Assembly (NCBI RefSeq): GCF_001280845.1
Contig: NZ_LGHP01000001.1
Span: 1,047,178-1,111,177, forward strand
DNA from: Bacillus sp. FJAT-28004
Lineage (GTDB): Bacteria; Bacillota; Bacilli; Paenibacillales; Paenibacillaceae
Direction: 5' to 3'
DNA: 64,000 nt
The position numbers and the translations under genes were made by a program. Positions 26,306 to 43,084 of this stretch are shown here, piece after piece (the first letter of the stretch is position 1; each line of letters opens with the position of its first letter). The notes below the pieces were generated by a model. That model was not told where the DNA came from. It did not search any database and saw only the letters and a list, made by a program, of their open reading frames with translations.

Positions 26306-27085
26306 ATGGCAACGCATTTTGTCATCGAAGGCCTGAAAGCGGCTATCGAAGGAAAAGAGATTTTGAAAGGTATCAACCTAGAAATTAAAGGTGGAGAAAT
26401 TCACGCGATCATGGGCCCAAACGGTACCGGTAAATCCACACTGGCATCTGCTTTGATGGGACATCCTAAATATGAAGTAACAGAAGGTACAGCAGTACTA
26501 GACGGCGCTGACATTCTTGAAATGGGCGTTGACGAGCGCGCGCTTGCTGGATTATTTCTTGCAATGCAATATCCGAGTGAAATTCCAGGCGTAACGAACT
26601 CTGACTTTCTACGCAGTGCACTCAATGCACGTCTTGGCGAAGGCAATGAGATCTCGTTGATTAAATTCATTCGCAAAATGGAAAGCAAAATGAAAGAACT
26701 TGAAATGAATGCTGAATTCGCTCACCGTTACCTTAACGAAGGTTTCTCTGGCGGCGAGAAAAAACGTAACGAAATTTTGCAAATGATGCTTCTTGATCCA
26801 AAAATCGTCGTTCTTGATGAAATCGATTCGGGTCTTGACATCGATGCTCTTCGTATCGTATCGCAAGGCGTAAACGCTATGCGTTCGGAAGATCGCGGTT
26901 TCCTTATCATTACTCACTATCAGCGTTTGCTTAACTATATTACTCCAGACTACGTACATGTTATGATGCAAGGCCGCATCGTTAAATCGGGTGGTCCTGA
27001 GCTTGCAGAGCGTCTGGAAAACGAAGGTTATGATTGGGTAAAAGAAGAACTTGGCATCGAAGATGAAACGGTCGGCCAGGCTTAA
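26306..27085 (+). CDS. sufC: Fe-S cluster assembly ATPase SufC
   Basis: ABC-type ATPase of 259 residues that drives the SufBCD scaffold. Walker [10 protein letters not shown] at about residue 37, signature [10 protein letters not shown] near 146, Walker [12 protein letters not shown], switch ITHYQRLL. First gene of a complete sufCDSUB operon in the Bacillus order. The site GGAGG precedes ATG. Confidence 0.97.
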
Positions 27086-27106
27086 GCAGAGAAGGGGGCA
27101 AAACGG

Positions 27107-30055
<2,949 letters not shown>

Positions 30056-30077
30056 ACTAGATTTATGAGGAGCGTGA

Positions 30078-31481
30078 ATGACCATGGCTAAATCAATGCC
30101 GGAAATGGAAGATTATAAGTATGGTTTCCGTGACGAGCACAAAGCCGTATTCGAATCAGGCAAAGGTTTAACAGAGGAAATCGTTCGCACGATTTCGGAT
30201 ATTAAAGGCGAGCCGGAGTGGATGCTGGATTTCCGCTTGAAATCACTTGAGCAATTTTTCAAAATGCCGATGCCTAAATGGGGCGGCAACATGGATGAGC
30301 TTGATTTTGACGACATCCAATATTATGTTCGTGCTTCCGATAAGCAAGGAAAAACATGGGAGGAAGTTCCTTCCGAAATTAAAGAAACGTTCGACAAGCT
30401 GGGTATTCCTGAAGCTGAGCAAAAGTTTCTTGCCGGCGTATCGGCTCAATATGAGTCCGAGGTCGTTTACCACAGCATGCAAGAGGATCTTGAGAAGCAA
30501 GGTGTTATCTTCACAGATACAGATACAGCGCTTCGTGAGTACCCTGAGCTTATGAAAGAATATTTCGGAACGATTATTCCTCCGAATGACAATAAATTTG
30601 CAGCTTTGAACAGTGCGGTATGGTCAGGCGGAAGCTTTATCTACGTGCCAAAAGGCGTTAAATGTGAAGTGCCTTTGCAAGCATACTTCCGTATTAACTC
30701 CGAGAACATGGGTCAATTCGAGCGTACGCTTATTATTGCCGATGAAGACAGCTCTGTTCACTACGTTGAAGGCTGTACGGCTCCCGTATACAGCACGAAC
30801 TCTTTGCATAGTGCGGTAGTTGAAATTTTGGTTAAGAAAAATGCCCGCGTTCGTTACACAACGATTCAAAACTGGGCACCGAATATTTATAACCTTGTTA
30901 CTAAACGTGCAGTAGCAGATGAGAATGCAACAATGGAGTGGGTAGACGGAAACATCGGCTCTAAGCTGACGATGAAGTACCCAGCAGTTGTTCTTCGCGG
31001 TCGCGGCGCAAAAGGCATGGTATTGTCCATTGCCGTTGCCGGCAAAGGTCAGCATCAGGACGCAGGGGCTAAAATGACTCACCTTGCACCAGACACTAGC
31101 TCGACGATCATCTCGAAGTCAATCAGTAAGCATGGCGGTAAAGTAACTTACCGTGGTCTTGCATCCTTCGGACGCAACTCCGACGGCGCTAAAGCGAATA
31201 TCAAATGTGATACGCTCATTCTCGATAATGAATCAACGTCAGATACGATTCCTTACAACGAGATCATGAACGATAACATTACACTTGAGCATGAAGCAAC
31301 GGTGTCGAAGGTTTCTGAAGATCAACTGTTCTACCTGATGAGCCGTGGTCTAAGCGAAGCGGAAGCAACGCAAATGATCGTAATGGGCTTCATCGAACCG
31401 TTCACGAAAGAGCTGCCGATGGAATATGCGGTAGAGATGAACCGTTTGATCAAGTTCGAGATGGAAGGTTCCATCGGTTAA
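30078..31481 (+). CDS. sufB: Fe-S cluster assembly scaffold SufB
   Basis: Scaffold subunit of 467 residues on which clusters are assembled. Conserved [36 protein letters not shown] and the C-terminal [14 protein letters not shown] are present. ATG 30078 follows GAGGAG. The final codons (EGSIG and stop) lie inside the 20-bp repeat that forms the left end of a genomic island. The coding sequence is intact, but no terminator follows it directly; a strong one is found only beyond the right end of the island. Confidence 0.96.
31462..31481 (+). repeat. left attachment site (attL)
   Basis: TGGAAGGTTCCATCGGTTAA, including the last codons and stop of sufB. Identical to 41811-41830; flanking bases differ on both sides. 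Confidence 0.9.
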
Positions 31482-31506
31482 TAAAAACGTAGTCGTATCA
31501 AGGGCT

Positions 31507-31549
31507 AAACGGTTTCAAAATATCGTATGATACCGTTTTGATACCGTTT
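31507..31549. repeat. putative integrase arm-type sites
   Basis: TGATACCGTTT occurs twice head to tail (31528-31538 and 31539-31549), with an inverted near-copy AAACGGTTTCA at 31507-31517. They lie between attL and the integrase and overlap its stop codon, where integrase or excisionase arm sites are expected. Confidence 0.5.
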
Positions 31550-32588
31550 AGTCAAATACGCTCATTACTTCGTGCTTTCTTTCCGTGTATAAGTGACCGT
31601 AAGTGTTGGCAGTTTGCTGAATATCATCATGACGTAAGAGCTCTTTAACAAGGTAGATATCCACTCCCTTGTTGATGAGATATGAAGCATAGCTGTGACG
31701 AAGGTCATGAATACGCAATTCCGGAAACACCATTTTATAGCGCTTGTGAAAGTGCGAATAATGGTAGGGTGCTAATCCACCGAACACATATAACGAATCG
31801 TTGAATCCGTAGATTTTTTCTGCGGATTCTTTTTTTATTTCTCTAAGCATATCTGCAATAAAAGCGGGAAATGGAACATATCCCACGCTGCCGGCAGTTT
31901 TTGGAGTCGTTGGCGTTCGTGTCTTTTGATCTAATGTTTTATTAACAAATAACTGCTGCTTTTGCAGGTCTATATCAGCCCATGTTAGAGCGAAAGCTTC
32001 TCCTACTCGAAGCCCTGTGTAAAGTAACAATCTAGTTAGTTCCTGATATTTATTGCTGGTTAAGCTCATAACACTCTGTTCAAATTCTTCCCGTATAATA
32101 AAGTTTATCTTTGGTTTCACTCTTTGAATCGCACCAGCAGCTAATGTAGGATCAATCTTAAGGCCAAAGAATTTTATAGCGTGGTTTACTAGTATTTTGA
32201 AATTGCTGTACACGGTCCTGGCGCTATTAAGAGAAACAAAGTTATTCTCCAGATGCGTCTTAAAATCCATGGCATGTTGGATATTGGCATCCTTTACTTT
32301 CATATGACCGAATCGCGGATTGATATGCAAATTATACTCGTTTCGGCGCCTACGAATTGTTTTGTCCTTGAGTTTTGTATGTTTAATGTTATGTTCAAAT
32401 ATTTCGTCAAAGGTAACATCCTCCGCATATAAGTCTTTAATACTGGATAGAAAATCAGCCTCGGCAATTATTGCCTCGCTCCTCTTGGCGAATCCTCTTC
32501 TCATTGCTTGTTTATATCTTCCATAGAGATCCTTATAACGAACTTTGAAATACCAAGTTTTGCGTTCTTCGTCCTTATAGACTGGCAT
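31548..32588 (-). CDS. int: tyrosine-type site-specific integrase
   Basis: Phage-type integrase of 346 residues. The N-terminal AP2-like arm-binding region ([16 protein letters not shown]) is followed by a SAM-like core domain and the catalytic domain with Arg in [18 protein letters not shown], and [14 protein letters not shown] holding the Tyr nucleophile. All catalytic residues are present, so it may be active. It points towards attL and starts at ATG 32588 with AAGGGA upstream. It most likely recombines the sufB-derived att core. Confidence 0.93.
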
Positions 32589-32668
32589 ATTCGATATTTC
32601 CCTTCATCTTCATAAATTATCTTTTAACGAATACTGCAATGTTTCTTCAATGTCGCTGAGTTGAAGCA

Positions 32669-32983
32669 CTAAACGTTGTATGCTTGTCGGATCGTAAAAT
32701 GATGGTTTTTCATCAAATGTTTTAAAGCTGAATCCCATACGATAGGTAGTGATATTCCAATTAATTGATCATTATCAATATGTCTTGTATATGCCGTACT
32801 CGGGACAGTGACGGCGGCACATTCTGGATCAATATCTTCAAAGGTTGTTCGTTCAAATGGAACTTTAATATTAATAAATAACGTCATTCCCCAATCAAAA
32901 TATGGGCTATCAATGATCATCCATATTGGTATCAAAAGGTTATCCTCGCCTGAATCTTCATAAATTACTTTGACGTTTAACAC
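32669..32983 (-). CDS. hypothetical island protein (104 aa)
   Basis: Unrecognised, acidic protein with no membrane segment. It starts at GTG 32983 behind AGAGGAAG and overlaps the end of the ImmA/IrrE-like gene by 26 bases, so it is probably co-translated with it. Function unknown. Confidence 0.55.
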   Translation of the reverse strand: MLNVKVIYEDSGEDNLLIPIWMIIDSPYFDWGMTLFINIKVPFERTTFEDIDPECAAVTVPSTAYTRHIDNDQLIGISLPIVWDSALKHLMKNHHFTIRQAYNV

Positions 32984-33599
32984 TATAGTTCAACTTCCTC
33001 TCAGCAACTTGATTACTTAATCTATCTAAAATTTTCATTGTTTCATCAGAATAGTTGCAGATGCTTGGTTTATTAGTTTGTTTGATTCGAATACTGCGAT
33101 CACGTCGTTCTTGCTCAATCCTTGCAATTACCTGCTGCAACCTACTTTCAACAAAGTCGACTGGGTAATGAAAGGCTTCGGCAATCGAATGGATGTAATC
33201 TTGCCAGTGTCTTTCGGGCTGTATTTCAGATAGTAGGTAGATAGGCATTGAAGCAACCAATTGAAACTGTGATGCTTGAGCTTCTTGAAGCTCTTGGAAC
33301 ATTATTGGCATGTTACCTTGAATTCCTGTGTGTCTTAATGGATGACATAACTCATGGAAAAACTCCATCCTCTGTTCTTCATCAGACATTTTATTATTAA
33401 TAAAAATGAGTGAGTAGCCGCCTTCTTCCCATTCGGCAAAGCAAGGGCCACTATAAAAATTCACAGCGATATTGAATATCTCCGAAACAGATTTAATAGT
33501 TAAGTCTGATGGTGAAAAAATACCATGATACTTGTATAGATTTGTTAACCATATTTCAATATCAGTTGACCTATAAAGATGAAAATCCAAGGTGCGCAT
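32958..33599 (-). CDS. ImmA/IrrE-family metallopeptidase
   Basis: A 213-residue protein with the zinc motif HELCH in EFFHELCHPLRH. In mobile elements such as ICEBs1 this family cleaves the immunity repressor to induce excision. No separate helix-turn-helix repressor gene is visible beside it, which is unusual for a working ImmA-ImmR pair. The Shine-Dalgarno (AGAGAAG) is weak. Confidence 0.8.
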   Translation of the reverse strand: MRTLDFHLYRSTDIEIWLTNLYKYHGIFSPSDLTIKSVSEIFNIAVNFYSGPCFAEWEEGGYSLIFINNKMSDEEQRMEFFHELCHPLRHTGIQGNMPIMFQELQEAQASQFQLVASMPIYLLSEIQPERHWQDYIHSIAEAFHYPVDFVESRLQQVIARIEQERRDRSIRIKQTNKPSICNYSDETMKILDRLSNQVAERKLNYSVKRQSNL

Positions 33600-33646
33600 G
33601 TATGACTTCTCTAATCAGGAACGTATGTTCGTATTTATGGGTAAAA

Positions 33647-33671
33647 AATATAGCCTAAGAAAAGGCTATAA
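33647..33671 (-). terminator. terminator for the small gene at 33689
   Basis: On the minus strand ATAGCCT/AGGCTAT with a short loop, followed by a T run. Confidence 0.75.
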
Positions 33672-33688
33672 ATTGTGTATTAACGAAA

Positions 33689-33799
33689 TTACGATTGATT
33701 CTCGTCCTTTTTACGTTGAGCCTTCCTATAAGCTTCAACAGCAGCTTTAGCAGCAGCTCGAGCGAGATCTAATTCTTCTTCTGTATATTTAGGGGTCAC
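33689..33799 (-). CDS. 36-residue charged alpha-helical protein
   Basis: GTG start at 33799, 7 bases after AAAGG. The peptide begins MTPKYTEEELDLARAAAKAA, is rich in Ala, Glu and Lys and ends near a terminator, which supports real expression. It is too short to classify. Confidence 0.5.
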   Translation of the reverse strand: MTPKYTEEELDLARAAAKAAVEAYRKAQRKKDENQS

Positions 33800-33919
33800 G
33801 CACGAACCTTTATGAGCTTTAGGCGTGATTCAGACAGTAAATATATCCCTATGTTTTTTATCAGATGTTTCAGAGGTTTTGAAGAGAAATCAAGAGGGTC
33901 AAGAAAGGAGGGGGCGTTT

Positions 33920-34885
33920 TTGGCATGGATAGAGAGTCATCAAGAACTAGCAAGGCATCCGAAAACGAAGCGTCTATCACGGCGATTAGGGGTTAATGTA
34001 CCGACAGCAATCGGTCATCTACATATGCTTTGGTGGTGGGCACTTGATTATGCCCCAGGCGGCGATATAACAGCCTACGAGTCAGAAGATATAGCGGAGG
34101 CAGTGAATTGGCCTATAGAAACTGCGGACATGCTTATGACCGCACTTATCGATTCAGGATTTATTGATAAAACAGATAATGTCACTGTACATGACTGGTT
34201 TGATTATGCGGGACGGCTAGTGGACAAGCGCGAACAAAACAAGCAAAGGAAACGGAAGTCACGCGCCAAGCAAGGGGAAAGCGAAGCAAGTCACAGCGTT
34301 GTCACGCGTGACACAAGTGTGACGCAGAGTGACGACAAGCGCGGTCACGGGGCTACAGAAAGAACCCAACAGAACCCAACAGAACCCAACAGAACCATAC
34401 CCAACCATACCAGTACCCAACCAAAACAAGCGGCAACACCGCCTGCTGCTGGTAGCATTAATCCTGTTTATAATCCTTTTCGTCTTTACGAAGCAGAAGG
34501 ATTCGGAACGATCAGCTCTATAACCGCTGATAAAATTAATGATTTTATAAAGGATTATGGTGAGCGATGGGTATGTGAGGCTATGAAAACTGCAACTGTC
34601 GCTGGTAAAAGAAATCTGACCTACGTCAACGGAATACTTAAGCGATACAAAGCAGAGGGAGTGGACGAACCATGGAATGTCGAGCGGAAATCTTCCAGCA
34701 CTAATCAATCATCTTCCCGTTCAGGCAAACCAAGGATTGAGATTGTCTCTGACAACAGACCTAAAGCAGTTGTTACGGATGAAACTCTTCGAGAGTTATG
34801 TGATTTAAGTAGGAAGGCAGATGGTCTTCCACAAGCTACCGAAGCTGATTATCTTGATTTTATCCGAACAGCAAGAAAGGAGTGA
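33920..34885 (+). CDS. phage-type replication protein with DnaD-like C-terminal domain
   Basis: A 321-residue protein. The N-terminal part (WIESHQELARHPKTKRLSRRLG) is a winged-helix replisome-organiser type. A Thr/Gln/Pro-rich linker follows, then a C-terminal DnaD-like domain (NPFRLYEAEGFGTISS, GERWVCEAM, YVNGILKRY). It would open an origin and load helicase, suggesting that the excised island can, or once could, replicate. TTG 33920 follows AAAGGAGGGGG; the frame extends to 33812 without a site. The linker is encoded by a 10-bp tandem repeat. Confidence 0.82.
   Translation: MAWIESHQELARHPKTKRLSRRLGVNVPTAIGHLHMLWWWALDYAPGGDITAYESEDIAEAVNWPIETADMLMTALIDSGFIDKTDNVTVHDWFDYAGRLVDKREQNKQRKRKSRAKQGESEASHSVVTRDTSVTQSDDKRGHGATERTQQNPTEPNRTIPNHTSTQPKQAATPPAAGSINPVYNPFRLYEAEGFGTISSITADKINDFIKDYGERWVCEAMKTATVAGKRNLTYVNGILKRYKAEGVDEPWNVERKSSSTNQSSSRSGKPRIEIVSDNRPKAVVTDETLRELCDLSRKADGLPQATEADYLDFIRTARKE
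34361..34396 (+). repeat. 10-bp tandem repeat inside the replication gene
   Basis: AGAACCCAAC three times plus a partial fourth copy. Because 10 is not a multiple of 3, gain or loss of one unit would shift the frame before the DnaD domain. Confidence 0.85.
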
Positions 34886-34889
34886 TTCA

Positions 34890-35174
34890 ATGCCAGCAGA
34901 TAAGAAAGAGCGTAAAACTATAGTCTGTGATGGGTTCAATCTTACATGGAAAAGTGAGCAATTAGATGACTTGTTAAGACTGCGTAGTGAAGACTATTCC
35001 ATTCAACAAATGGCTAAATACTTCCGTCGTCCTCGTAAAGAGAATCTTGTCGCATTATCAGACATCTTGCAGGAAACCGAATTAGCAGCAATGTTAGGAG
35101 ATTGGTGGGGGGAAAGGTATATAACAAGCCGCAGAAATTTGAGTGTAAGGACTAATATGGTAGGTCGCTTCTGA
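34890..35174 (+). CDS. hypothetical island protein downstream of the replication gene
   Basis: A 94-residue protein, Lys/Arg/Leu-rich, possibly a small DNA-binding helical protein (EDYSIQQMAKYFRRP suggests a helix-turn-helix). ATG 34890 follows AAAGGAG and lies 4 bases after the preceding stop, so the two form an operon. A longer frame from 34821 has no support. Confidence 0.6.
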   Translation: MPADKKERKTIVCDGFNLTWKSEQLDDLLRLRSEDYSIQQMAKYFRRPRKENLVALSDILQETELAAMLGDWWGERYITSRRNLSVRTNMVGRF

Positions 35175-35192
35175 ATGAATAAGCGGTGTACA

Positions 35193-35279
35193 TTAAAGGC
35201 GCTTCCATAAACGGTATTTTACTGTGAAATAAATTGATAATAGAGCGACTAGAATAACTCCTACTGTTTTGAAAGCCAT
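35193..35279 (-). CDS. 28-residue membrane micro-protein
   Basis: ATG at 35279 behind AAAGGAGG. One hydrophobic segment (VGVILVALLSIYFTV) is followed by a basic end (KYRLWKRL). No family recognised. Confidence 0.6.
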   Translation of the reverse strand: MAFKTVGVILVALLSIYFTVKYRLWKRL

Positions 35280-35401
35280 TAGGTTCGCCTCCTTTAATAT
35301 GATCAAGATAAACATACCATATTTTTACTATTCACTCAAAGGTAATTGAAATAACAAAATGAGGGAGGCAAGAACGAACCTCCCTGCTAATCTCGCCAAA
35401 C

Positions 35402-35560
35402 CTACCGGTGTTCTACCAAGTCGATTGCACCAAGAATAAGATGGGCAAGTCCAAAACCTAGAACACCAGTACCAACAAGTTTGTACTTGCTTTTAAGCAG
35501 TGTAGCACCAGAAGCAGATACCACAGTTCCAAGAACGGCAGGAATCAAACCTTCGCGCAT
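35402..35560 (-). CDS. 52-residue hydrophobic protein
   Basis: ATG at 35560 behind AAGGGGTG. Starts MREGLIPAVLGTVVSASGA and has a second Gly/Leu-rich segment (VGTGVLGFGLAHLILGAIDL), so two short membrane helices are likely. A copy of the island's recurrent upstream element lies about 90 bases upstream. Confidence 0.65.
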   Translation of the reverse strand: MREGLIPAVLGTVVSASGATLLKSKYKLVGTGVLGFGLAHLILGAIDLVEHR

Positions 35561-35682
35561 ATACAGCACCCCTTTTGGTTTTGTTTAGCAAGACATTTTA
35601 TTATGTTTCAAAACTACTTTTTTAATCCAAATTGGGGAAAGAACCGACTGAATACCGAAGAGCATGAGAGGAGGGAGGGACG

Positions 35683-35748
35683 ATGAATAGTGTTCCTGTA
35701 CAACAGACTGAAGTAATACCGGCTATCGACTTATTGGACCTTTCTTAA
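35683..35748 (+). CDS. possible 21-residue peptide or gene remnant
   Basis: ATG at 35683 is preceded by GAGGAGGGAGGG, but the frame closes after MNSVPVQQTEVIPAIDLLDL and one more residue. Either a tiny peptide or the 5' remnant of a decayed gene. Confidence 0.3.
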   Translation: MNSVPVQQTEVIPAIDLLDLS

Positions 35749-35897
35749 ATCGTAACACAGTGGATGGTCTTATCAAAAATATGACGCATTATTTTTCCTT
35801 GTAGATTCTTTGCGTATTTGGGTACATTCACATAAACAGTCACCCATTCGTACGACCTGAGCAGGAACAGACCTGAATATTTAGTATCTTTCTGAAC
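35749..35897. other. gene-free stretch in the island
   Basis: No reading frame with a ribosome-binding site and no recognisable RNA gene seen on either strand. It may be remnant sequence. Confidence 0.4.
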
Positions 35898-35930
35898 AAA
35901 AAAATACCCCCCATTAATTTTGGAGGGTAT
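35898..35930 (-). terminator. minus-strand terminator without an obvious gene
   Basis: ATACCCTCC/GGGGGGTAT stem followed by T7 on the minus strand. No gene lies between it and the next terminator to the right, suggesting a lost gene. Confidence 0.65.
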
Positions 35931-36010
35931 ATGGAGTTGAGTTGTCCTCTAAATTATATGAACTTTTTATAAAATATGTTAATTAATATTGAAGAACATG
36001 GGAAAATGCT

Positions 36011-36037
36011 AAAAAAATCCCGCCCGAGGGGCAGGAT
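36011..36037 (-). terminator. terminator of the DUF3231 gene
   Basis: ATCCTGCCC/GGGCGGGAT followed by T7 on the minus strand. Confidence 0.85.
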
Positions 36038-36047
36038 TAATTAATAT

Positions 36048-36566
36048 TTATGCGTTAGCAGTCTCTGGTCGCTTAACTTGAAGTGGAGGAGGTATAAGCC
36101 AACCTTTTTCTTTGCTCAGTTCGAGTATTTTAACGCCTAGTACAGTTTTAGTAAGATGATATTTCGCAAATAAAGCTCCAATATCTTCTCTAATAGACTG
36201 ACCCATAACTTGGCTACAAGCAACTAGTCCAAGTGATGTGTCAGCGGCAATTTTAGCAGCGATTTCAGGATCAGTGAATCTTGCACCTACAGGGATGTCT
36301 TCGAGTTTAACAGGGGGTCTTTCAGGCATCATAGGTACGGAAGCAATTCCGTTATCAGTAAGCAATGTATCACATTCTTTAATCTCCATCTTTGCTTGAT
36401 CAATGAGGGCGTCCAGTATTTTTTTTAAGTCTTTGTCTCCAGCGTGATTTAAGTATGCTTGGTAACAGGATACGGCGCCTTTTGCTACAGTTGAAGCCTG
36501 CCAAACACTAAATATTTCACCGTAGTGCATTGGTTCATCCTTTGGATTACCGCTTAAAATTCCCAT
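36048..36566 (-). CDS. DUF3231 family protein, single domain
   Basis: A 172-residue helical protein. MGILSGNPKDEPMHYGEIF and the following STVAKGAVSCYQAYLNHAGD are typical of the DUF3231 family found in spore-formers, probably ferritin-like; most members have two such domains, this one only one. ATG 36566 is chosen because AAAGGAG lies 8 bases before it; the frame extends a further 49 codons without a site. Function not known. Confidence 0.75.
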   Translation of the reverse strand: MGILSGNPKDEPMHYGEIFSVWQASTVAKGAVSCYQAYLNHAGDKDLKKILDALIDQAKMEIKECDTLLTDNGIASVPMMPERPPVKLEDIPVGARFTDPEIAAKIAADTSLGLVACSQVMGQSIREDIGALFAKYHLTKTVLGVKILELSKEKGWLIPPPLQVKRPETANA

Positions 36567-36770
36567 TCGATTTGCTCCTTTTGATTCATTAATTTTTTGA
36601 ACTGACTTAATATGCTTAACTACACATAAATAATACGAGCAAGGCTGAAATTCACAAAAATACTTGGAAACACTTCGAATTAGGCGGGAAAAATGAACGA
36701 AGCTATTTTGCACTCAAATGAACCCCCCAATAAATGCAGGGGTTCATGAAAAACGATTCTCTATTCTTGC

Positions 36771-37094
36771 TTAAGTACGTTCCCGATCTCGGCTTCTTAA
36801 TCCGATTAAGCCCGTTAAGCCAAGCAAACCAAGCCAGCCCCAATTATTTCTTCTATCGTCTGTTGTCGCATTTGTCCGATAGTTGTTTGCATTCATACCA
36901 GTGTTATTTGCTCCATAGCCATCTCCATAGCCGTTTATTTGATTAGTGGTTGTGTTGTTTGTTCCATAACTGTTCATACGATTGTTATCTGTTGTCATCC
37001 TATCTACTTGATTTGATTGTTCCGCGAAGGCAGGGAAGCATAGTGCGGAAGATAGGATTGTAAAGGCAAATAGCAACGAGTAAATTTTTTTCAT
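36771..37094 (-). CDS. WGxxGxxG-type small surface protein
   Basis: A 107-residue protein with a signal peptide (MKKIYSLLFAFTILSSALCF), an Asn/Thr/Tyr/Gly-rich middle (NNTTTNQINGYGDGYG) and a C-terminal WGWLGLLGLTGLIGL segment followed by RSRDRE. The last part matches the WGxxGxxG C-terminal anchor or sorting pattern. Probably exported and anchored at the membrane. AAGGAG precedes the ATG. Confidence 0.7.
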   Translation of the reverse strand: MKKIYSLLFAFTILSSALCFPAFAEQSNQVDRMTTDNNRMNSYGTNNTTTNQINGYGDGYGANNTGMNANNYRTNATTDDRRNNWGWLGLLGLTGLIGLRSRDRERT

Positions 37095-37245
37095 TTTTAC
37101 TAATTCTCCTTGTGTTCAAATTTTTTACGTTTATAAGTTACCCTTATTGAAAATAAAATATTCTGTTCGCTAAGATACGTTAAAGTAACAAAATGAATAT
37201 TAAGTAGCTTGGGAAGTTATCGAATTGTATTTGAAAGATCTGAAT

Positions 37246-37347
37246 TTATAAACACCGTCTGATTACTGAAATGAAAGCAATAATCACCAACAAAGTGAAT
37301 AATAACAGGATAATAACGATATTAGAACCACCAACAAATTCACCCAT
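37246..37347 (-). CDS. 33-residue YjcZ/YtzI-like membrane micro-protein
   Basis: ATG at 37347 behind GGAGGTGA. It begins MGEFVGGSNIVIILLLFTLL, continues with a second hydrophobic run and ends RRCL. The Gly-rich start plus single Ile/Leu/Val helix is typical of small sporulation-associated YjcZ-type proteins. A CATAGCGTA box (sigma-K-like -10) lies at 37373-37381. Confidence 0.7.
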   Translation of the reverse strand: MGEFVGGSNIVIILLLFTLLVIIAFISVIRRCL

Positions 37348-37481
37348 CAAATACTCACCTCCCAATATTTAATACGCTATGCAGATTATATACGGATGAC
37401 AATTTGGGATTGGACGTTTGCTCTGCAGTGATGAGTGACCAGATTGGATATTGAAGATTTTGATATGAATTATTAGAACGC

Positions 37482-37504
37482 AAAAGACCCATAGAATGGG
37501 TCTT
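37482..37504 (-). terminator. terminator for the micro-gene at 37582
   Basis: AAGACCCAT/ATGGGTCTT with a 3-base loop, then TTTTGCG on the minus strand. Confidence 0.65.
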
Positions 37505-37581
37505 CTGAATAGATCTTGTTCGAATAATTCTATATTTTGTAAGAAGGTAAAAGTTGAAATCGAGCTGCAAAATTAATAGTC

Positions 37582-37743
37582 TCAGAAGTTGCAGCCTGTG
37601 CTGATACCTTCAACTCTTCTTTCATCTTTTCTGTCTTCTCTTCTTTCTTCTCTTCTCTCGTTGCGGCCGAGGACGCCAACACTACAAGCAATAATCACTA
37701 ATAGAATGAAAAGCACCAGAATCGTACCAAGGTTATTGTTCAT
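37582..37743 (-). CDS. 53-residue YjcZ-like micro-protein with charged tail
   Basis: ATG at 37743 behind AAGGAGGT. It begins MNNNLGTILVLFILLVIIAC, the same helix as the gene at 37812, then continues with a repeated Arg/Glu tail (RNERREERREDRKDERR). Its first 20 codons and leader are a direct duplicate of its neighbour. The opposite-strand frame here is a shadow. Confidence 0.7.
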   Translation of the reverse strand: MNNNLGTILVLFILLVIIACSVGVLGRNERREERREDRKDERRVEGISTGCNF

Positions 37744-37759
37744 TATTCAATTTACCTCC
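37681..37759. repeat. direct repeat, copy 1 of the micro-gene duplication
   Basis: 79 bases that match 37842-37920 with about five differences. The repeat covers the ribosome-binding site and the first 20 codons of the two micro-genes. Confidence 0.9.
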
Positions 37760-37811
37760 TTAAGTCTTAGTGAATTATAAAAGTTAGCGTACACAGTTTA
37801 AGTCTATGGGA

Positions 37812-37904
37812 TTAGTAATTGTCATGGTGGCGGCGGTTGCAACTACAAGCGATAATCACTAATAAAATGAAAAGCACCAGAATCGTACCAAGGTTATTGT
37901 GCAC
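37812..37904 (-). CDS. 30-residue YjcZ-like micro-protein
   Basis: GTG start at 37904 behind GGAGGTGA. It begins MHNNLGTILVLFILLVIIAC and ends with a short Cys/Asn/His-rich tail (SCNRRHHDNY). Paralogue of the gene at 37582. A CATACTCTA box (sigma-K-like -10) lies at 37940-37948. Confidence 0.7.
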   Translation of the reverse strand: MHNNLGTILVLFILLVIIACSCNRRHHDNY

Positions 37905-37920
37905 TATTCAATTCACCTCC
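37842..37920. repeat. direct repeat, copy 2 of the micro-gene duplication
   Basis: Partner of 37681-37759, 161 bases away and about 94 percent identical by eye. Confidence 0.9.
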
Positions 37921-38191
37921 CTGTGTTTTGACTACCATGTAGAGTATGTATTGATAGAATTTAGTGATTGGATGTTTGTTCCGGTATGATACTAGCCTTA
38001 TATAAAAGGATAGGACAAAAGTGTGGACGATTTGCTGAGACAATATTGAATGAATATTGAAGATCATGGATGCAAGAGAAAATCATAATTGAAGACGTCG
38101 TTTCTCAAACCACATGCATTGTGCTTCCTAATAGGGCAGCTGGGAAGTTATGATGCAATATTTTATCCCAGACAGCCCTATAAAATGGCTA

Positions 38192-38371
38192 TCATTTTAT
38201 TTTTGAGTACTCATGTGATAAGGAATTAAGGATCTGCTGAAACAGAATCTTAGAATTTGTACTTTGACGGGGTTCCAAATGATCAAGCTCATTAAATGAA
38301 CTTTCAATGCGTTCTCCGTGCAAGCGAACGTATGATTTTAATTTCTTTGATTTCTTTTTCATGCTAATCAT
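38192..38371 (-). CDS. 59-residue basic protein
   Basis: ATG at 38371 behind CAGGAGG. It begins MISMKKKSKKLKSYVRLHGE and continues as a polar, probably helical protein ending HEYSKIK. No family recognised. It shares the recurrent upstream element (38461-38483) with other island genes, which supports its being real. Confidence 0.65.
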   Translation of the reverse strand: MISMKKKSKKLKSYVRLHGERIESSFNELDHLEPRQSTNSKILFQQILNSLSHEYSKIK

Positions 38372-38483
38372 TAAGGCCTCCTGAATTTTAAGATCTTAGA
38401 TTGTAAGTTTGGGGAATGTAACTTGTCAGTGCATTCGTCTAAGTGATTGGAATGAACACTGTCTGAATATTAAGCTTCATTGG

Positions 38484-38510
38484 AAAAAGAAAGCCCATAG
38501 AATGGGCCTT
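38484..38510 (-). terminator. orphan minus-strand terminator next to the IS remnant
   Basis: AAGGCCCAT/ATGGGCTT stem then TCTTTTTCC on the minus strand, resembling the one at 37482. No minus-strand gene ends near it; the IS remnant begins 80 bases to the right, so a small gene may have been lost there. Confidence 0.55.
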
Positions 38511-38589
38511 CTTATTAATGCGATTTTATAAGTTAACGAAAGGAGGTTACGCAATTAAATAATAAATGAAATGAATTTAATCAAATAAA

Positions 38590-39366
38590 AAATCCTCCGG
38601 CGTCTACGTGAAACGATTGCACACAGATAAGGATAAGCAGGATAAGCAGCTGATTCGTGGCACTTTTGAATATTATAGAGGCGTGTATGGGTACCGCCAG
38701 ACTCAATTATTCTTGTACCAAGATCATGGCGTGTGGATGAACCACAAGAAGGTTTTCCGGCTAATGCAAGAAATGGAGCTGTGCTCTAGAGTACGTTGTA
38801 AGTACCATCACAGTTCACGAAACTGGAACATCAGTGACCGCGTTACTAAGAATATCCTGGAACGCAAGTTTCAAGCTGAAGCGCCCAATCAAAAGTGGGT
38901 AACTGAGGTCACACAGTCTAGAATTGGTGATGTTTGGCTATATCTATCTGCCATTAAAGACTTGTGCCAGAACGAAATTATCGCTTACCAAACTAGTCTT
39001 CACAATGACAAGCAACTTGTTCTGCAGACGTTCTCTAAGGCGTTTGAAAAGGAAAAGGACGTGACGGGGCTGATCGTTCACAGCGATCAATGATCCCAGT
39101 ACACGTCCTACGATTACCACGACAATCTGACAAAGGTTGGCACCCAAATCAGCATGACTCGACGAGGCAATTGTAACGACAATGCCTCAATGGAGAGCTT
39201 CTTCTCGCATTTGAAGACAGAAGCGCTCTATCCTTATGATATTCGATCGGTAGAAGAAGCACAAAGCCGAATTGAAGAATATATACACTTTTACAACAAC
39301 AAGCGTCCGCAAAGAAAACTAAACAAGCTGGCTCCGGTTCAATACCGGCTCCAGCTTGTTAGGTAG
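38590..39366 (+). pseudogene. IS3-family transposase OrfB, broken
   Basis: The rve integrase domain is recognisable: YRGVYGYRQ, KWVTEVTQS, IVHSDQ, then SQYTSYDYH, SMTRRGNCNDNASMESFF and HFYNNKRPQRKLN. It is broken in three ways: the start is missing, a TGA stands at 39091-39093 where GGA (Gly of HSDQGSQY) is expected, and the first catalytic Asp of the DDE triad is Glu (WVTEVT). The frame continues unchanged after the stop, so this is a point nonsense mutation. Confidence 0.88.
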
Positions 39367-39405
39367 GGTCTTTTATTCAGTGTCCGCTATCTGGGGTCTT
39401 GACCA
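38590..39405 (+). mobile_element. IS3-family (IS150-like) element, 5'-truncated remnant
   Basis: Holds the 3' two thirds of a transposase orfB and a terminal sequence TGTCCGCTATCTGGGGTCTT plus GACCA at 39381-39405, the typical right end of this group. orfA, the start of orfB and the left inverted repeat are absent. Confidence 0.8.
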
Positions 39406-39523
39406 ATCCACGAAGGGTTTTTATGATTATGCTGAAAATGGTGAAGCAGTTTATTGATTTACAAGAAACAAAATAAATATAAGAGTATGTAAGAGCGCTT
39501 GTATAAGCAAGCGCTCCACAAAG

Positions 39524-39637
39524 TTAGCAATGGTGTTTTTTTCTTCTGTGCTTCTTGCCGATAATAAGAACTTTTTGACCAGGTTTAACAAAAATAACTT
39601 TAATCTCTTTCTCTCTGCAAGCATCTCCGAATCCCAT
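39524..39637 (-). CDS. 37-residue basic, His-tailed protein
   Basis: ATG at 39637 lies 9 bases after AAAAGGAG. It begins MGFGDACREKEIKVIFVKPG and ends with a Lys/Arg/His/Cys-rich tail (KKHRRKKHHC). The beta-strand-like middle and basic tail suggest a spore-coat or nucleic-acid-binding peptide, but I recognise no family. Confidence 0.65.
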   Translation of the reverse strand: MGFGDACREKEIKVIFVKPGQKVLIIGKKHRRKKHHC

Positions 39638-39737
39638 GCCAATCAACTCCTTTTCCTCAAGTTAATCTAGTATATTCATAGATTAATAGGTTTGATTGGG
39701 TATTTGATATTCCAGAGGTAATTGAGTTTTCAGCAGA

Positions 39738-40547
39738 TTAAGCTGGCTTACCTGTCAGACTGTTTTCAAACATATCGATTATAACGAGGAAATGTTCTGC
39801 TTCGCGGAATACATGATCCGCCAATAACGGATGAATGATACTTTTTATACGGCAAGCTTCAATAAGGTCTCGAGCTGTTCTCTTAAAGTCACGAAGCGAT
39901 TTAACTGACACTCTATTTTGATCAAGAAATTGGTCAAGTAGTGGAACAGTTTGCGATTGAGGACGCATAGATTCCAAGTCCTTTGCTTGAAACAGTAAGG
40001 TGTCAAATTCTTGACTGAAGTTATTTGCTTGTTCCACTAGCTGTCGCTCAGAAGGATCAAGCAAGTGACTAATGAATTTGGCGTGATCAGCCATGATTCT
40101 TAGAAAGAAAACATTCTCGTCGATAATAGCATCAGGCAGCGGCTCCAACCGACCCAAATTTAATTCTGACAAGCGATTTCTGAAATAATTCGCTTCTCTA
40201 CTCACATGATCAACTAACAATGGAAAGTTGTTTGCACCTGGAAGTTGGCATGTCAGTATTAAACCGAGCACTTTTCTTTTGAAAGCCCAAATATAAGAAA
40301 CAGCAGTATGCACCTCTTCATTGAATCTTTTAATTACAGTGGGATCAGTTCCAACAGTAAATGCATTAGCTCTATTTTCGATTGCTTCAAAAATGGCATA
40401 GAAATGATTTGCCTCATTAATTAATTGGGTATCCTCACAACGGAAACCCAATTTAAGAAAAAGAGAATGCTCTTTCATAATTCGAGACCAAAACCTAACT
40501 TCTTCTAAAGAACGAGATACAAATAACTGATCTAACAATGGCAGCAT
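39738..40547 (-). CDS. DUF2935 family protein
   Basis: A 269-residue helical protein with two similar halves: EVRFWSRIMKEHSLFLKLG near the start and ENVFFLRIMADHAKFISHL in the middle, and HVSREANYFRNRL matched by HVFREAEHFL near the end. The repeated Glu and His pairs suggest a ferritin-like di-metal four-helix bundle. DUF2935 proteins are common in spore-formers; function is not established. A sporulation-type promoter precedes it. Confidence 0.85.
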   Translation of the reverse strand: MLPLLDQLFVSRSLEEVRFWSRIMKEHSLFLKLGFRCEDTQLINEANHFYAIFEAIENRANAFTVGTDPTVIKRFNEEVHTAVSYIWAFKRKVLGLILTCQLPGANNFPLLVDHVSREANYFRNRLSELNLGRLEPLPDAIIDENVFFLRIMADHAKFISHLLDPSERQLVEQANNFSQEFDTLLFQAKDLESMRPQSQTVPLLDQFLDQNRVSVKSLRDFKRTARDLIEACRIKSIIHPLLADHVFREAEHFLVIIDMFENSLTGKPA

Positions 40548-40571
40548 CTCCCTCGTAGCTTAATCTTTAAG

Positions 40572-40602
40572 TACTGTATGAAAGGAGAGTTTGTACTATT
40601 CC
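40572..40602 (-). promoter_or_regulatory. sporulation sigma-E/K-like promoter of the DUF2935 gene
   Basis: On the minus strand GGAATA, a 16-base spacer, then CATACAGTA, close to the sigma-E -10 (CATACANT) and sigma-K -10 (CATANNNTA) patterns, 25 bases before the start codon. Confidence 0.5.
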
Positions 40603-40625
40603 CTACCTAGGTTTCTGTGAATGTA

Positions 40626-40650
40626 AAAAAAACCTCCTGTTGATTGGAGG
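40626..40650 (-). terminator. terminator of the gene at 40668
   Basis: CCTCC/GGAGG stem, loop of 8, followed by T8 on the minus strand. Confidence 0.75.
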
Positions 40651-40667
40651 GCGGAATGAATATTGTA

Positions 40668-41132
40668 TTACTTCACTACTTTAATATGCACTTTAGCAAT
40701 TATCCATGCTGTTGTAACACATAGATACGCAATTGAGTAGGAAATGAATGTCCAACCTATATTCCATCCGTTTCCGTATGTTAAGAATCCAAATAGAAAG
40801 GCCATATATTCAAGGACAGTAGTGATTATGCTGAAAATCAAAATAATGATGACTGGATGGAGTCGAAAAGGTCTTTTTGAAAGTGTGTAAATTAATAGAG
40901 AACCTAGAACAGCGTATAGGCCAAAATCAAATGGTAATGCGGAAATAGTTTCAATTTTCTCGAAATAAGGTTTAAAGTTCCAAAAGCCAAAATAGATGCC
41001 TATTGTATTTATTAACAATGAAATTACTATGGTTACAGGACTAATGACAATAAATAAGATCGGTTGTTTCCGAACCATGAACGATGCTAAAACCCAAGGA
41101 ATTATGAAGCCAAAAATAATATTGATAAGCAT
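40668..41132 (-). CDS. CBO0543-type integral membrane protein
   Basis: A 154-residue protein with about five transmembrane helices. FGFWNFKPYFEKIETISALP and the following FDFGLYAVLGS match the CBO0543 family of Bacillota membrane proteins, whose function is unknown. ATG 41132 is chosen because GGAGTGA lies upstream; the frame continues to 41216 with no site. Very AT-rich compared with the core genes. Confidence 0.65.
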   Translation of the reverse strand: MLINIIFGFIIPWVLASFMVRKQPILFIVISPVTIVISLLINTIGIYFGFWNFKPYFEKIETISALPFDFGLYAVLGSLLIYTLSKRPFRLHPVIIILIFSIITTVLEYMAFLFGFLTYGNGWNIGWTFISYSIAYLCVTTAWIIAKVHIKVVK

Positions 41133-41216
41133 TTTTAGTTTCACTCCGTAATTAAAGTGTTTTATATTAAGTTTCGTCATAAAAGCGAGTAGATATTCAA
41201 TTAACTTTATATTCAA

Positions 41217-41239
41217 GTCTGAATATTGAAGAACATTGG
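41217..41239 (-). repeat. recurrent upstream element of island genes (one copy)
   Basis: Minus strand CCAATGTTCTTCAATATTCA followed by GAC. Related copies: 35648-35667, 35985-36001, 37194-37212, 37446-37462, 38051-38069, 38461-38483. The rest of 41133-41432 holds no clear gene. Confidence 0.6.
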
Positions 41240-41432
41240 AGGATTAACCTAAGAAATTTTTAAGGTGCAAATGAAGCGTTACGAATGATATACCATAATC
41301 CAAGCAAGCCTGCGTAAATTATTATTAGAATCGTTGATAATTGCCTAACACATACATTTGTTTGCCTTAATAGGATGTTGTGAGCCACATAATCAGTTAT
41401 GGGTCACGTAATCATTAGGAGGCATGCGACGA

Positions 41433-41795
41433 ATGCAGAGGAAAAAAGCTAAAATAATAAAGAGAACTAGATCTTGTAAAAAGGTACAGCGCCACGTACA
41501 TGAGTTTGAAGGTAGTACAAAACTGGCTGAAGAAGGCGATGATCGACATAATCATCGCTTTGCAGGCGTTACAGGCCAAGCGATTCGAGTAGGAAAAAGT
41601 CATGTCCATGAAATTGATCTTACGAACACGGATTTCTTAGACCATTTTCATAAACTGAAAAAGATTGTAACAGGACCGGCTATTGCAGTGGGAAATGGCA
41701 AACACGTTCATTTTGTAACAGGCCAAACGACATTAAATGATGGTCATGTTCACCCATTTAAATTCGCAACATTGATTCAAGCACCTCTTGTTTAA
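41433..41795 (+). CDS. YmaF family protein
   Basis: A 120-residue protein with repeated His motifs: RHVHEFEGSTKLAEEG, DRHNHRFAGVTGQAI, SHVHEI, KHVHFVTGQTT and GHVHPFKF. This matches the YmaF family of Bacillus, whose function is unknown; the four or five HxH units suggest metal binding. ATG 41433 lies 10 bases after AGGAGG, while ATG 41424 is too close. It is the last gene of the island, ending 15 bases before attR. Confidence 0.8.
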   Translation: MQRKKAKIIKRTRSCKKVQRHVHEFEGSTKLAEEGDDRHNHRFAGVTGQAIRVGKSHVHEIDLTNTDFLDHFHKLKKIVTGPAIAVGNGKHVHFVTGQTTLNDGHVHPFKFATLIQAPLV

Positions 41796-41810
41796 TTAAT
41801 AAAAGCTATT

Positions 41811-41830
41811 TGGAAGGTTCCATCGGTTAA
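41811..41830 (+). repeat. right attachment site (attR)
   Basis: TGGAAGGTTCCATCGGTTAA, identical to the end of sufB, here outside any gene. Confidence 0.9.
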
Positions 41831-41846
41831 CGATAAGCCAAAAGTA

Positions 41847-41896
41847 AAAAGGAGCTGTCCCAAAGTAGAACTTTCTACTTTAGGGCAGCTCCTTTT
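41847..41896 (+). terminator. probable original terminator of the suf operon
   Basis: Very strong stem (AAAAGGAGCTGTCCC, then AAAGTAGAA, paired with TTCTACTTT and GGGCAGCTCCTTTT). It begins 17 bases after attR, which before insertion would have been 17 bases after the sufB stop. Confidence 0.85.
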
Positions 41897-41959
41897 CCAT
41901 GAATAGAAATTACTATTAAACATGGTCTTGATCAAGAATGACATTGAGGACAATTCTTT

Positions 41960-43084
41960 TTATTTTGCCATTAAGAGCTCAACTGCTTTATCGAAATAGC
42001 TGCCAAGCTTAGCTGGTTCATCCATGTTGCTATGTGCCCAATAAAAGATCATCGCATTTTTTAATTTATAAATTCGAGGGTACAGCATATTAATCATTTC
42101 GGTTTGCTTTTGAAAATCCTTTAGACCTTCCTCTATCTGTTGTTCAGAATCGAATATATAAATGGAAAGCTGCTCTAGGCGGGTGGAATCCGTTTCTTTG
42201 TTAATAAGACTGACCGTATATCTGCTTGGCTTAATACCATCCAATACCCAATCCTTATCTAAGCTGATAGGAGTCAAAAGCAGTTGTTGGTTGCTTAATT
42301 CTTCTTCAATTAAATCTAAGTATAGGGAGGACTCCTCTACTGCTGGTTCAATGATTTGGACGGTAATTGCGAATCGAATCGGTGGAAAAGAATCCAGCTG
42401 AATATTTGCTGCTCTGACTGCAATAGGTTGGCCAATATGCAGCTTCGAATAAACTTCTTTGTCCATTTCATACCACGCTAGCTCGCGATTATTCACTGCT
42501 TTATCGATCCATTCATCCATCGTATATCTGTTTTTCTCTTGTTCAGACCAATTTGTCGCGACTAAAGCTCGGTACGATTCATTTTGAGCAATGATTTTTT
42601 TATCCATAACAAGACCTTGTACAACTTTCTCAGGCTCTGACCATGATAGGATTTCCCGAATCTTAATCGTTGCAGAAGGAGATAGTCTAAACATCGTATG
42701 CGAGTCATCTAAATTAACGATTGAATCTGTTTTATCATCACCAATCAAAAGATAATATTCGGAGCTGCCGATTAAAACTTTATAAGTTGGAGGCGCCATT
42801 TTCACGATACCTTTTAATGGTTCAGCTTCTTCAAAAGCTTTTTTAAACACATCAATGAGATCAGATTCCGTTATGGTCTGAAAAATGTTATCGGTTTTTT
42901 CAGAACTGTTATCACCGTTTTTGAGATTATAAATAATGACTTTTTCACTCGTATGAGTGGGTTGCTGAGTTGGTTCAATGCTTGCTAGCACACTTGGCTG
43001 AACAGTTGGTTTATTGTTTATTTCTGCGGATTTGCATCCTGTCATCATTATAACGATCATGATTATCCCCGAAATGCTTTTCAA
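41960..43084 (-). CDS. hypothetical lipoprotein (374 aa)
   Basis: N-terminal signal with lipobox IMMTGCKS, so it is probably lipid-anchored outside the membrane, followed by a Thr/Gln/Pro-rich linker. The body has no domain I recognise. TTG 43084 follows AGAGGTGA by 6 bases. First gene after the island; no clear partner. Likely an envelope or stress-related protein, but that is only inference. Confidence 0.7.
   Translation of the reverse strand: MKSISGIIMIVIMMTGCKSAEINNKPTVQPSVLASIEPTQQPTHTSEKVIIYNLKNGDNSSEKTDNIFQTITESDLIDVFKKAFEEAEPLKGIVKMAPPTYKVLIGSSEYYLLIGDDKTDSIVNLDDSHTMFRLSPSATIKIREILSWSEPEKVVQGLVMDKKIIAQNESYRALVATNWSEQEKNRYTMDEWIDKAVNNRELAWYEMDKEVYSKLHIGQPIAVRAANIQLDSFPPIRFAITVQIIEPAVEESSLYLDLIEEELSNQQLLLTPISLDKDWVLDGIKPSRYTVSLINKETDSTRLEQLSIYIFDSEQQIEEGLKDFQKQTEMINMLYPRIYKLKNAMIFYWAHSNMDEPAKLGSYFDKAVELLMAK

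Follow-up and report, generated by a model that had tools for sequence, protein, structure and literature searches.

The window analyzed here is a 64,000-nucleotide (nt) stretch of the genome of Bacillus sp. FJAT-28004 (Paenibacillaceae; contig NZ_LGHP01000001.1, positions 1,047,178 to 1,111,177 of the forward strand), and the subject is a 10.35-kb island at the 3' end of sufB with a terminator-like hairpin inside its integrase gene. The source assembly (7.48 Mb) is designated G000; other G- and L-numbers denote comparison genomes and comparison loci or contigs. The target gene, sufB, is the last of a sufCDSUB cluster (26306–31481; the names sufC, D, S, U and B were assigned by reading the open reading frames, ORFs) and occupies 30078–31481 on the plus strand. 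The island is bounded by two plus-strand copies of the 20-mer TGGAAGGTTCCATCGGTTAA, at 31462–31481 and 41811–41830. The left attachment (att) copy, attL, consists of the final codons of sufB. The right copy, attR, begins 16 nt past the end of a YmaF ORF (41795), lies in no ORF taken for a gene and is followed directly by host sequence. The integrase gene (31548–32588, minus strand) converges on sufB and ends 66 nt from attL. A native-type hairpin presumed to be the sufB terminator now lies beyond the island at 41847–41896, and a second hairpin with a T-run, at 31803–31836 inside the integrase gene and antisense to it, is the candidate for its replacement.

Integration at the last codons of sufB

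The original prediction had described a perfect 20-bp repeat around a 10.35-kb segment, with its left copy in the last sufB codons, its right copy outside any gene and a complete tyrosine integrase beside the left copy. The repeat search and the ORF list agree on each point: the copies are 100% identical with a start-to-start distance of 10,349 bp, and the integrase ORF encodes 346 residues. The 20-mer matches the window at these two places only when up to three mismatches are allowed, and 100 dinucleotide-preserving shuffles of the window gave a mean of 0.02 matches and two matches in none. The whole assembly, searched at up to two mismatches, holds only the same two copies and no third. A chance repeat, which had been named as a ground for doubt, is ruled out as the origin of the flanks by the shuffles and the assembly search.

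DNA matches at sufB were found in 98 of 99 relatives. The joined flanks of the window form one continuous sequence in G050 and G028, where the sufB stop is followed by CGATAA and a strong hairpin; this is the uninterrupted sufB–terminator junction that had been proposed as a check. For 56 relatives, between about 7 and 59 kb of sequence downstream of sufB was examined. HD-GYP, the next conserved gene, lies within 1.4 kb of the sufB stop in 40 of these and 11.8 kb away in the window. The distance is 2.3–6.3 kb in four relatives (G023, G052, G027, and G025) and 19.9–45.7 kb in five (G054, G017, G047, G053, and G042), and the gene was not found in the examined stretch of seven. Among the five with a long gap, a second att copy is present in G053 and G042 and none was found in G017, G047 or G054. 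The sufB locus has been a repeated target of insertion. In the stretches examined, no relative among the 56 carries the island's gene set at sufB without the repeat, the other ground for doubt; G025 has a DUF3231 gene (67%). The empty sites and the relatives support site-specific integration at the sufB 3' end with the SufB protein unchanged.

Three other loci were recorded alongside this comparison. The 45-kb insertion at sufB in G042 (L056 462 and 45.1 kb on, L057) has an integrase only 26% identical, and its attL end seems to swap the host's last sufB codons for synonymous ones. Between sufB and HD-GYP, G025 (L156 574–6582) has its DUF3231 gene together with ORFs read as a HAD-type gene, a manganese-catalase-like gene, an aldehyde dehydrogenase and a transporter; no second att copy was found there. 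Lysinibacillus sp. ZYM-1 carries a 7.5-kb reduced element at sufB (L081 3674–11143) with both att copies and ORFs read as integrase, replication-type, holin-like and amidase-like.

Pfam matches (Phage_integrase, Arm-DNA-bind_4, Phage_int_SAM_3, and Phage_int_SAM_5) assign arm-binding, SAM-like and catalytic domains to the integrase, and the R, H-x-x-R, H, and Y residues that we take to be catalytic are conserved in an alignment of 10 integrase sequences. Searches with the integrase matched three genomes besides G000 among 99 relatives (E 1e-40) and five besides G000 among 394 family genomes (E 1e-45). The five distinct matches (G053, G153, G023, G047, and G382) all adjoin sufB, and integrase relatives also lie at sufB in Brevibacillus centrosporus and Lysinibacillus. 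The integrase is homologous to this family over its whole length (46–76% identity over 346 residues). Its sufB-adjoining relatives include those of G053 (73%, in a 40-kb element with both att copies), G153 (72%), Brevibacillus (74%), Lysinibacillus (60%, in the 7.5-kb element) and the phage record phiSP44-1 (47%), which includes host sufB. The sufB-end core stands beside the integrase gene in PG1 (66%), SN8 (47%), SAP-26 and phiETA2 (both 46%) and viral contig L096; no core was found in contigs L094, L095 and L097, of which L094 and L095 end at the integrase gene. Integrases of 25–34% identity (10 bacterial loci among L083–L093 and viral contigs L098–L101) have no SufB match in the flanking DNA examined. 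The island itself is integrated at the last sufB codons and has both attL and attR.

The original prediction had called sufB an unusual target, and published reports contradict this. In their accessible text, Sa1int prophages of Staphylococcus aureus CC398 sit mostly at the sufB 3' end (PMC11217367), Latilactobacillus sakei has two prophages in a sufB-like gene (PMC9641780), S. pseudintermedius has two between sufB and a protease gene (PMC8297860), and Enterococcus cecorum has islands between dnaX and sufB (PMC10117131). As an insertion target, sufB is already known and not new. The accessible text of a report on Paenibacillus larvae prophages states that they carry SufB and NifU proteins (PMC9341999); these may be host suf genes on the attL side of a sufB prophage with a misplaced boundary.

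Seventeen core copies (attL, attR or attP, from 13 sources) were compared. The search pattern forces MEG, not SIG-stop, and 16 of the 17 encode MEGSIG-stop with differing codons; the exception is the right copy in the window, which reads LEGSIG-stop. The two att copies of G042, and likewise those of the Lysinibacillus element, are alike through GAGATGGAAGG and differ after it, both still encoding GSIG-stop, which indicates that strand exchange probably lies within TGGAAGG only. The left side of the repeat in the window starts only at TGGAAGG, and the likely exchange segment is thus 31462–31468. The last four codons and the stop of sufB (GSIG-stop) are probably supplied by the element. Two direct repeats, TGATACCGTTT-TGATACCGTTT at 31528–31549, stand beside and overlap the integrase 3' end. 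Like repeats occur beside the integrase gene in the relatives and in staphylococcal phages, and they are likely arm-type integrase sites.

A terminator-like hairpin on the back strand of the integrase gene

A terminator-like hairpin lies within 700 nt of the sufB stop at 85 of 102 sufB sites, at a median distance of 24 nt. In the window the corresponding hairpin is the inverted repeat at 41847–41896 on the plus strand, with 24-nt arms that are 92% complementary and an end in TTTT; its 2-nt loop keeps it off the list of the terminator consensus scan. The same native-type hairpin follows sufB directly in G050 (+23) and G028 (+19). The insertion thus separates sufB from its presumed native terminator by 10.35 kb. 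The earlier claim that integration leaves SufB unchanged stands for the protein but not for the transcription unit, which is altered because the native-type hairpin now lies beyond the island.

In the window, the first terminator-like site found past the sufB stop on the sufB strand is at 31803–31829, 322 nt from that stop. Its sequence is GAATCCGTAGA-TTTTT-TCTGCGGATTC followed by TTTTTTT, and the full feature (31803–31836) has a G+C-containing stem, a short loop and a T-run directly after, the structure of an intrinsic terminator. The arm-site repeats, between the sufB stop and this hairpin, fold strongly (-28.7 kcal/mol, z -6.0) and have no T-run.

Family integrase genes were compared with controls using one fixed filter. 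The family set held 13 genes, 10 with the sufB core seen plus L094, L095 and L097 without it, and an antisense terminator was present in 11. Synonymous-codon shuffles that kept the protein fixed equalled the observed hairpin in 0–3 of 300 per gene. The same filter found an antisense terminator in 0 of 10 other integrases (one of them, L092, was read in a frame with 15 stops), in 1 of 26 further integrases from relatives and in 13 of 727 background ORFs of at least 250 residues. Four of 30 loci with no complete ORF, and ORFs with the family's HDLRHSYAS motif, were dropped before these last two counts. Two integrases that adjoin sufB remain in them: L182 (G074) is among the 26 further integrases, and that of G041 is among the 13 background hits. 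The antisense terminator of the staphylococcal relatives is a different one and sits at about +454. A distant integrase lineage at sufB has a third, weaker antisense terminator-like hairpin inside the gene in G041 (L160; 27–28% identical, +174) and G074 (L218; 23% identical, +155), and none in G042 (26%).

For the 12 genes whose hairpin is at the Paenibacillus-type position, codons were compared pairwise wherever both sequences encode the same residue. They were identical in 434 of 494 such comparisons (88%) in the hairpin versus 6816 of 15331 (44%) elsewhere in the gene. The top eight of 338 nine-codon windows all start at codons 247–254, which correspond to the hairpin and its T-run. All 13 coding copies form a more stable hairpin on the sufB strand than on the integrase strand.

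The pattern GAATCCGTAGANNNNNTCTRCGGATTCTTTT was sought with up to two mismatches in 98 genomes plus 394 family genomes (432 distinct). It matched 17 sites in 17 genomes, one near-palindrome being counted once; every one is on the sufB strand at a distance of 19–581 nt past the sufB stop. No site lies away from sufB, which rules out a generic terminator type common in these genomes. The integrase is complete at two of the 17 sites (G000 and G153) and fragmentary at six (G023, G027, G047, G055, G146, and G382), and tblastn detected none at nine (G020, G026, G043, G080, G093, G107, G142, G386, and G401). Three of these nine still show other traces of the element, namely its left end in G020 and arm-type repeats in G043 and G401. 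In G026 and G080, where no other part of the element was recognized, the hairpin begins 19 nt past the sufB stop. A related exact pattern matched seven viral contigs, in each case in an integrase relative, complete in six and fragmentary in L262; L262 carries sufB and has the same match values as the G382 site. A looser regular expression over 95 sites hit 15 of them, where 0.75 hits would be expected at the frequency seen beyond 2.5 kb downstream. Twelve were kept, including G002, added through this expression, and three (G006, G011, and G048) were dropped as unrelated by eye.

At 12 of 16 relic sites no other terminator was found between sufB and the hairpin; the G035 hit (+17, different stem) was left out of this count. 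G027 has a further copy of this hairpin type nearer to sufB. At three sites a native-type hairpin before the relic (G047 L248, G401 L261, and G023 L249) sits inside the old attL; in G401 and G023 it also lies before the arm-type repeats.

Watson-Crick pairs, of 11 possible, averaged 9.3 in coding copies (n = 13), 9.8 beside integrase fragments (n = 6) and 10.4 where no integrase was detected (n = 10), and the mean energies on the sufB strand were -12.6, -14.0, and -15.8 kcal/mol. The G002 hairpin (26 nt) is counted in these means and left out of the covariation alignment. Stem pair 8 is U.G in most coding copies, one of which (L096) has U-A; the 15 aligned relics have six U-A, two C-G, and seven U.G. 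Double changes occur at stem pair 4 in G107 and at stem pair 9 in G093. Three stem pairs are changed on both sides, and the covariation score of 0.152 exceeds all 500 shuffles and the slid controls, which reach at most 0.045.

Gene content and class of the element

Ten main island proteins were scanned per library (Pfam, NCBIfam-type, and PHROG scans). Leftward genes beyond the integrase are an ORF of 104 residues with no family (32669–32983, minus) and an ImmA/IrrE-type metallopeptidase (Peptidase_M78; 32958–33599, minus). A DnaD-like phage replication initiator follows (33812–34885, plus; PHROG 9474 and 186, TIGR01446, and DnaB_2), 42% identical over 69% of its length to a protein of Paenibacillus phage Harrison, and then an ORF of 94 residues with no family (34890–35174, plus). 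The cargo comprises a DUF3231 protein (36048–36566, minus; Pfam, with a solved relative, 2rbd), a WGxxGxxG family protein (36771–37094, minus; NCBIfam), a DUF2935 protein akin to a solved metalloprotein (39738–40547, minus; Pfam, 3d19 at E 9e-129), a CBO0543 family protein (40668–41132, minus; NCBIfam) and a YmaF family protein (41424–41795, plus; Pfam), for which a Protein Data Bank search gave no match. A repeat search showed two small YjcZ-like ORFs (37582–37743 and 37812–37904, minus) in an 88-nt duplication; only the second has a TIGR01732 match, below cut-off. An IS3-family transposase remnant in two pieces (38608–39366, plus) was recognized from its first piece (NCBIfam NF033516 below cut-off, PHROG 157), the second (39154–39366) being assigned by ORF reading.

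The accessible text of one report lists a YmaF-like gene among the sporulation-controlled genes of Clostridioides difficile (PMC3789822), and the cargo would be a spore-type gene set; no literature linking DUF3231 to spores was found. Several cargo genes have a TGAATATT-type sequence upstream (window 37195, 38052, 38465, and 41221; also 35875), perhaps a shared promoter element. It fitted no known sporulation promoter that could be named.

Cargo relatives were found in G050, the sister species in which the sufB site is empty. Five matched segments, 91–96% identical and in another order, lie in an 8.1-kb insertion (L131 7777–15886) upstream of a gene read as lipA. They correspond to DUF3231 with WGxxGxxG, two parts of the YjcZ-like region, DUF2935 and YmaF, and include neither CBO0543 nor the left part of the island. 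Fragments of two further integrases and a DNA methyltransferase are likewise present in the insertion. It is flanked by the 13-bp repeat CGAAACATGTTAT, of which G000 has one copy at the same place (L173 16548) and no insertion; the flanking chromosome is 89–91% identical between the two. The islands are thus reciprocal, G000 being occupied at sufB and empty at the lipA-like site and G050 the reverse. The presence of the cargo at two sites beside different integrases suggests that it has travelled on different elements.

The island resembles a reduced prophage carrying spore-type cargo. The proteins scanned include no recognized terminase, capsid, tail, lysis or other structural genes of a complete prophage, no relaxase, with or without a secretion system, of an integrative and conjugative or mobilizable element, and no match to an AlpA/Stl-type regulator or packaging-interference genes. 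The latter two, with helper dependence, are hallmarks of satellites such as phage-inducible chromosomal islands (PICIs). Only weak PADLOC matches, to the ImmA-like protein, were found among nine proteins, and a defence island was rejected.

The Sa1int-type phages phiETA2 and SAP-26 (which we take to be Sa1int), S. pseudintermedius SN8 and phiSP44-1 resemble the island in their homologous integrase (46–47% identity), in having the last sufB codons in attP or adjoining host sufB with a MEGSIG-stop core, and in a TGATACC direct repeat beside the integrase gene. They differ in being complete phages and in the position of their antisense terminator (about +454). Paenibacillus phage PG1 shares a 66% identical integrase, 19 of 20 core bases and the same kind of hairpin in the integrase gene, whereas its record has lysis and tail genes. 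The PG1 integrase (L102 4001–5037) is unannotated, its reading frame being split into two overlapping matches. The L. sakei prophages use the same gene, and their att sequences hold TGGAAGG on the complementary strand (PMC9641780, accessible text), a likeness of target gene and att sequence that leaves the integrases aside. In the accessible text on the fis PICIs (PMC10111431), the att block covers the gene end and stop codon as here; unlike the island, the target's own terminator typically follows the block, which can extend into it, and no terminator inside the integrase is described.

Explanations and implications

The reading that we consider highly probable is that a reduced phage element sits at sufB, that an integrase-borne antisense terminator ends sufB transcripts, and that this terminator is often kept after the element decays. 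The segment would be an integrated, reduced temperate-phage element whose tyrosine integrase recombines TGGAAGG near the sufB 3' end; anatomy and comparison were observed directly, and the strand exchange is the predicted step. The element would supply GSIG-stop, leaving SufB unchanged, and integration would place 10.35 kb between sufB and the presumed native terminator. The predicted intrinsic terminator on the non-coding strand of the integrase gene would then end sufB transcripts in the integrated state; its structure, codon constraint and exclusive location point to this function. The relics suggest that a decaying element often leaves the hairpin behind as the terminator of sufB, with a stem that improves on average once the coding constraint is gone. 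The cargo would be a spore-type gene set that the sister species largely shares, in a different island at a different site.

Several observations weigh against this account. The consensus scan of 31300–42000 gave 11 terminator-like sites versus 7.8 (standard deviation 2.9) in shuffles, which is unremarkable, and the case for a terminator therefore draws on the shuffles of the genes, the codons, the distribution and the relics. Two of the 13 family genes fail the filter (L096, with a weaker form, and L097, 53% identical), the hairpin is weak in some coding copies (-7.3 to -9.9 kcal/mol in V268, G053, PG1, and V264), and the G042 integrase, 26% identical and at sufB, has no integrase-borne terminator by the filter. 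The family copies are kin by descent, some nearly identical, and the counts do not represent independent events. The relic is preceded by a strong native-type hairpin in G047 and G401, by a weak hairpin in G382 and, by eye only, by a native-looking one in G023; the relics of G020, G023, and G047 are weaker than the coding mean. A spore role of the cargo rests on family names and the one YmaF-like gene listing. No excisionase or phage structural gene was recognized in the island, and its present mobility is therefore putative.

Among the alternatives, the one that fares best, though we hold it to be rather unlikely, is that the hairpin serves the element by blocking sufB transcripts that run antisense through the integrase gene, host retention being incidental. 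A terminator at this position also limits antisense RNA over the first ~750 nt of the gene, and retention in fragments could be neutral. Against this, hairpins without a detectable integrase are better paired on average than coding ones, and the hairpin is the first terminator after sufB at most relic sites. The two roles can coexist.

It is improbable that the island is a PICI-like satellite or a conjugative or mobilizable element instead of a reduced prophage. Satellites share integrase, ImmA-like and replication-initiator type genes, and the island has all three in a small size. The scanned main proteins, however, include no AlpA-type regulator, terminase, capsid or relaxase family, and the same integrase family occurs in the 40-kb element of G053 and in phages.

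The hairpin could also be an ancestral host sufB terminator, or a common type, that the integrase gene captured by chance. Bare hairpins 19–49 nt after sufB with no integrase detected (G026, G080, G107, G142, G386, and G002) fit this origin, as may the somewhat similar G035 hairpin at +17, possibly kin to them. We consider the origin quite improbable: a type confined to 17 sites in 432 genomes, none away from sufB, is not common, and its occurrence is sporadic (15 of 394 family genomes). The intermediates keep integrase fragments (6 of 17), the element's left end or arm repeats, and phage PG1 and the Brevibacillus and Lysinibacillus elements have the hairpin within their integrase genes. That the hairpin is a mere by-product of integrase protein sequence with no role in transcription is very improbable, since its residues are indeed well conserved across the Paenibacillus-type part of the family but protein-preserving shuffles seldom reach it, its codons are far more conserved than those elsewhere in the gene, it is present at nine of 17 sites with no detected integrase, and the staphylococcal relatives have a different antisense terminator at another place in the gene.

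The reading of a terminator that replaces the displaced one extends, with good though lesser confidence, to mobile elements whose insertion site is the 3' end of an essential operon: a terminator on the integrase back strand, conserved at synonymous sites, would have evolved more than once, would replace the displaced terminator and would be repeatedly kept by the host as the only remnant of the element, with its stem repaired after release from coding constraint. The accessible parts of the open-access literature searched, including PMC10111431 and PMC10220527, describe no terminator inside an integrase gene, and within that literature an integrase-borne substitute terminator with repeated host retention is apparently undescribed.

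Integrating elements restore the end of the gene they enter. The present case suggests the same ability for the end of the transcription unit, through a signal in the antisense strand of the integrase gene. If true, this would go some way to explaining why an essential operon can withstand insertion after insertion, some as long as 45 kb, and the back strands of integrase genes could be searched for such signals where elements target other protein genes. It would also constitute a route from phage coding DNA to a host regulatory element.

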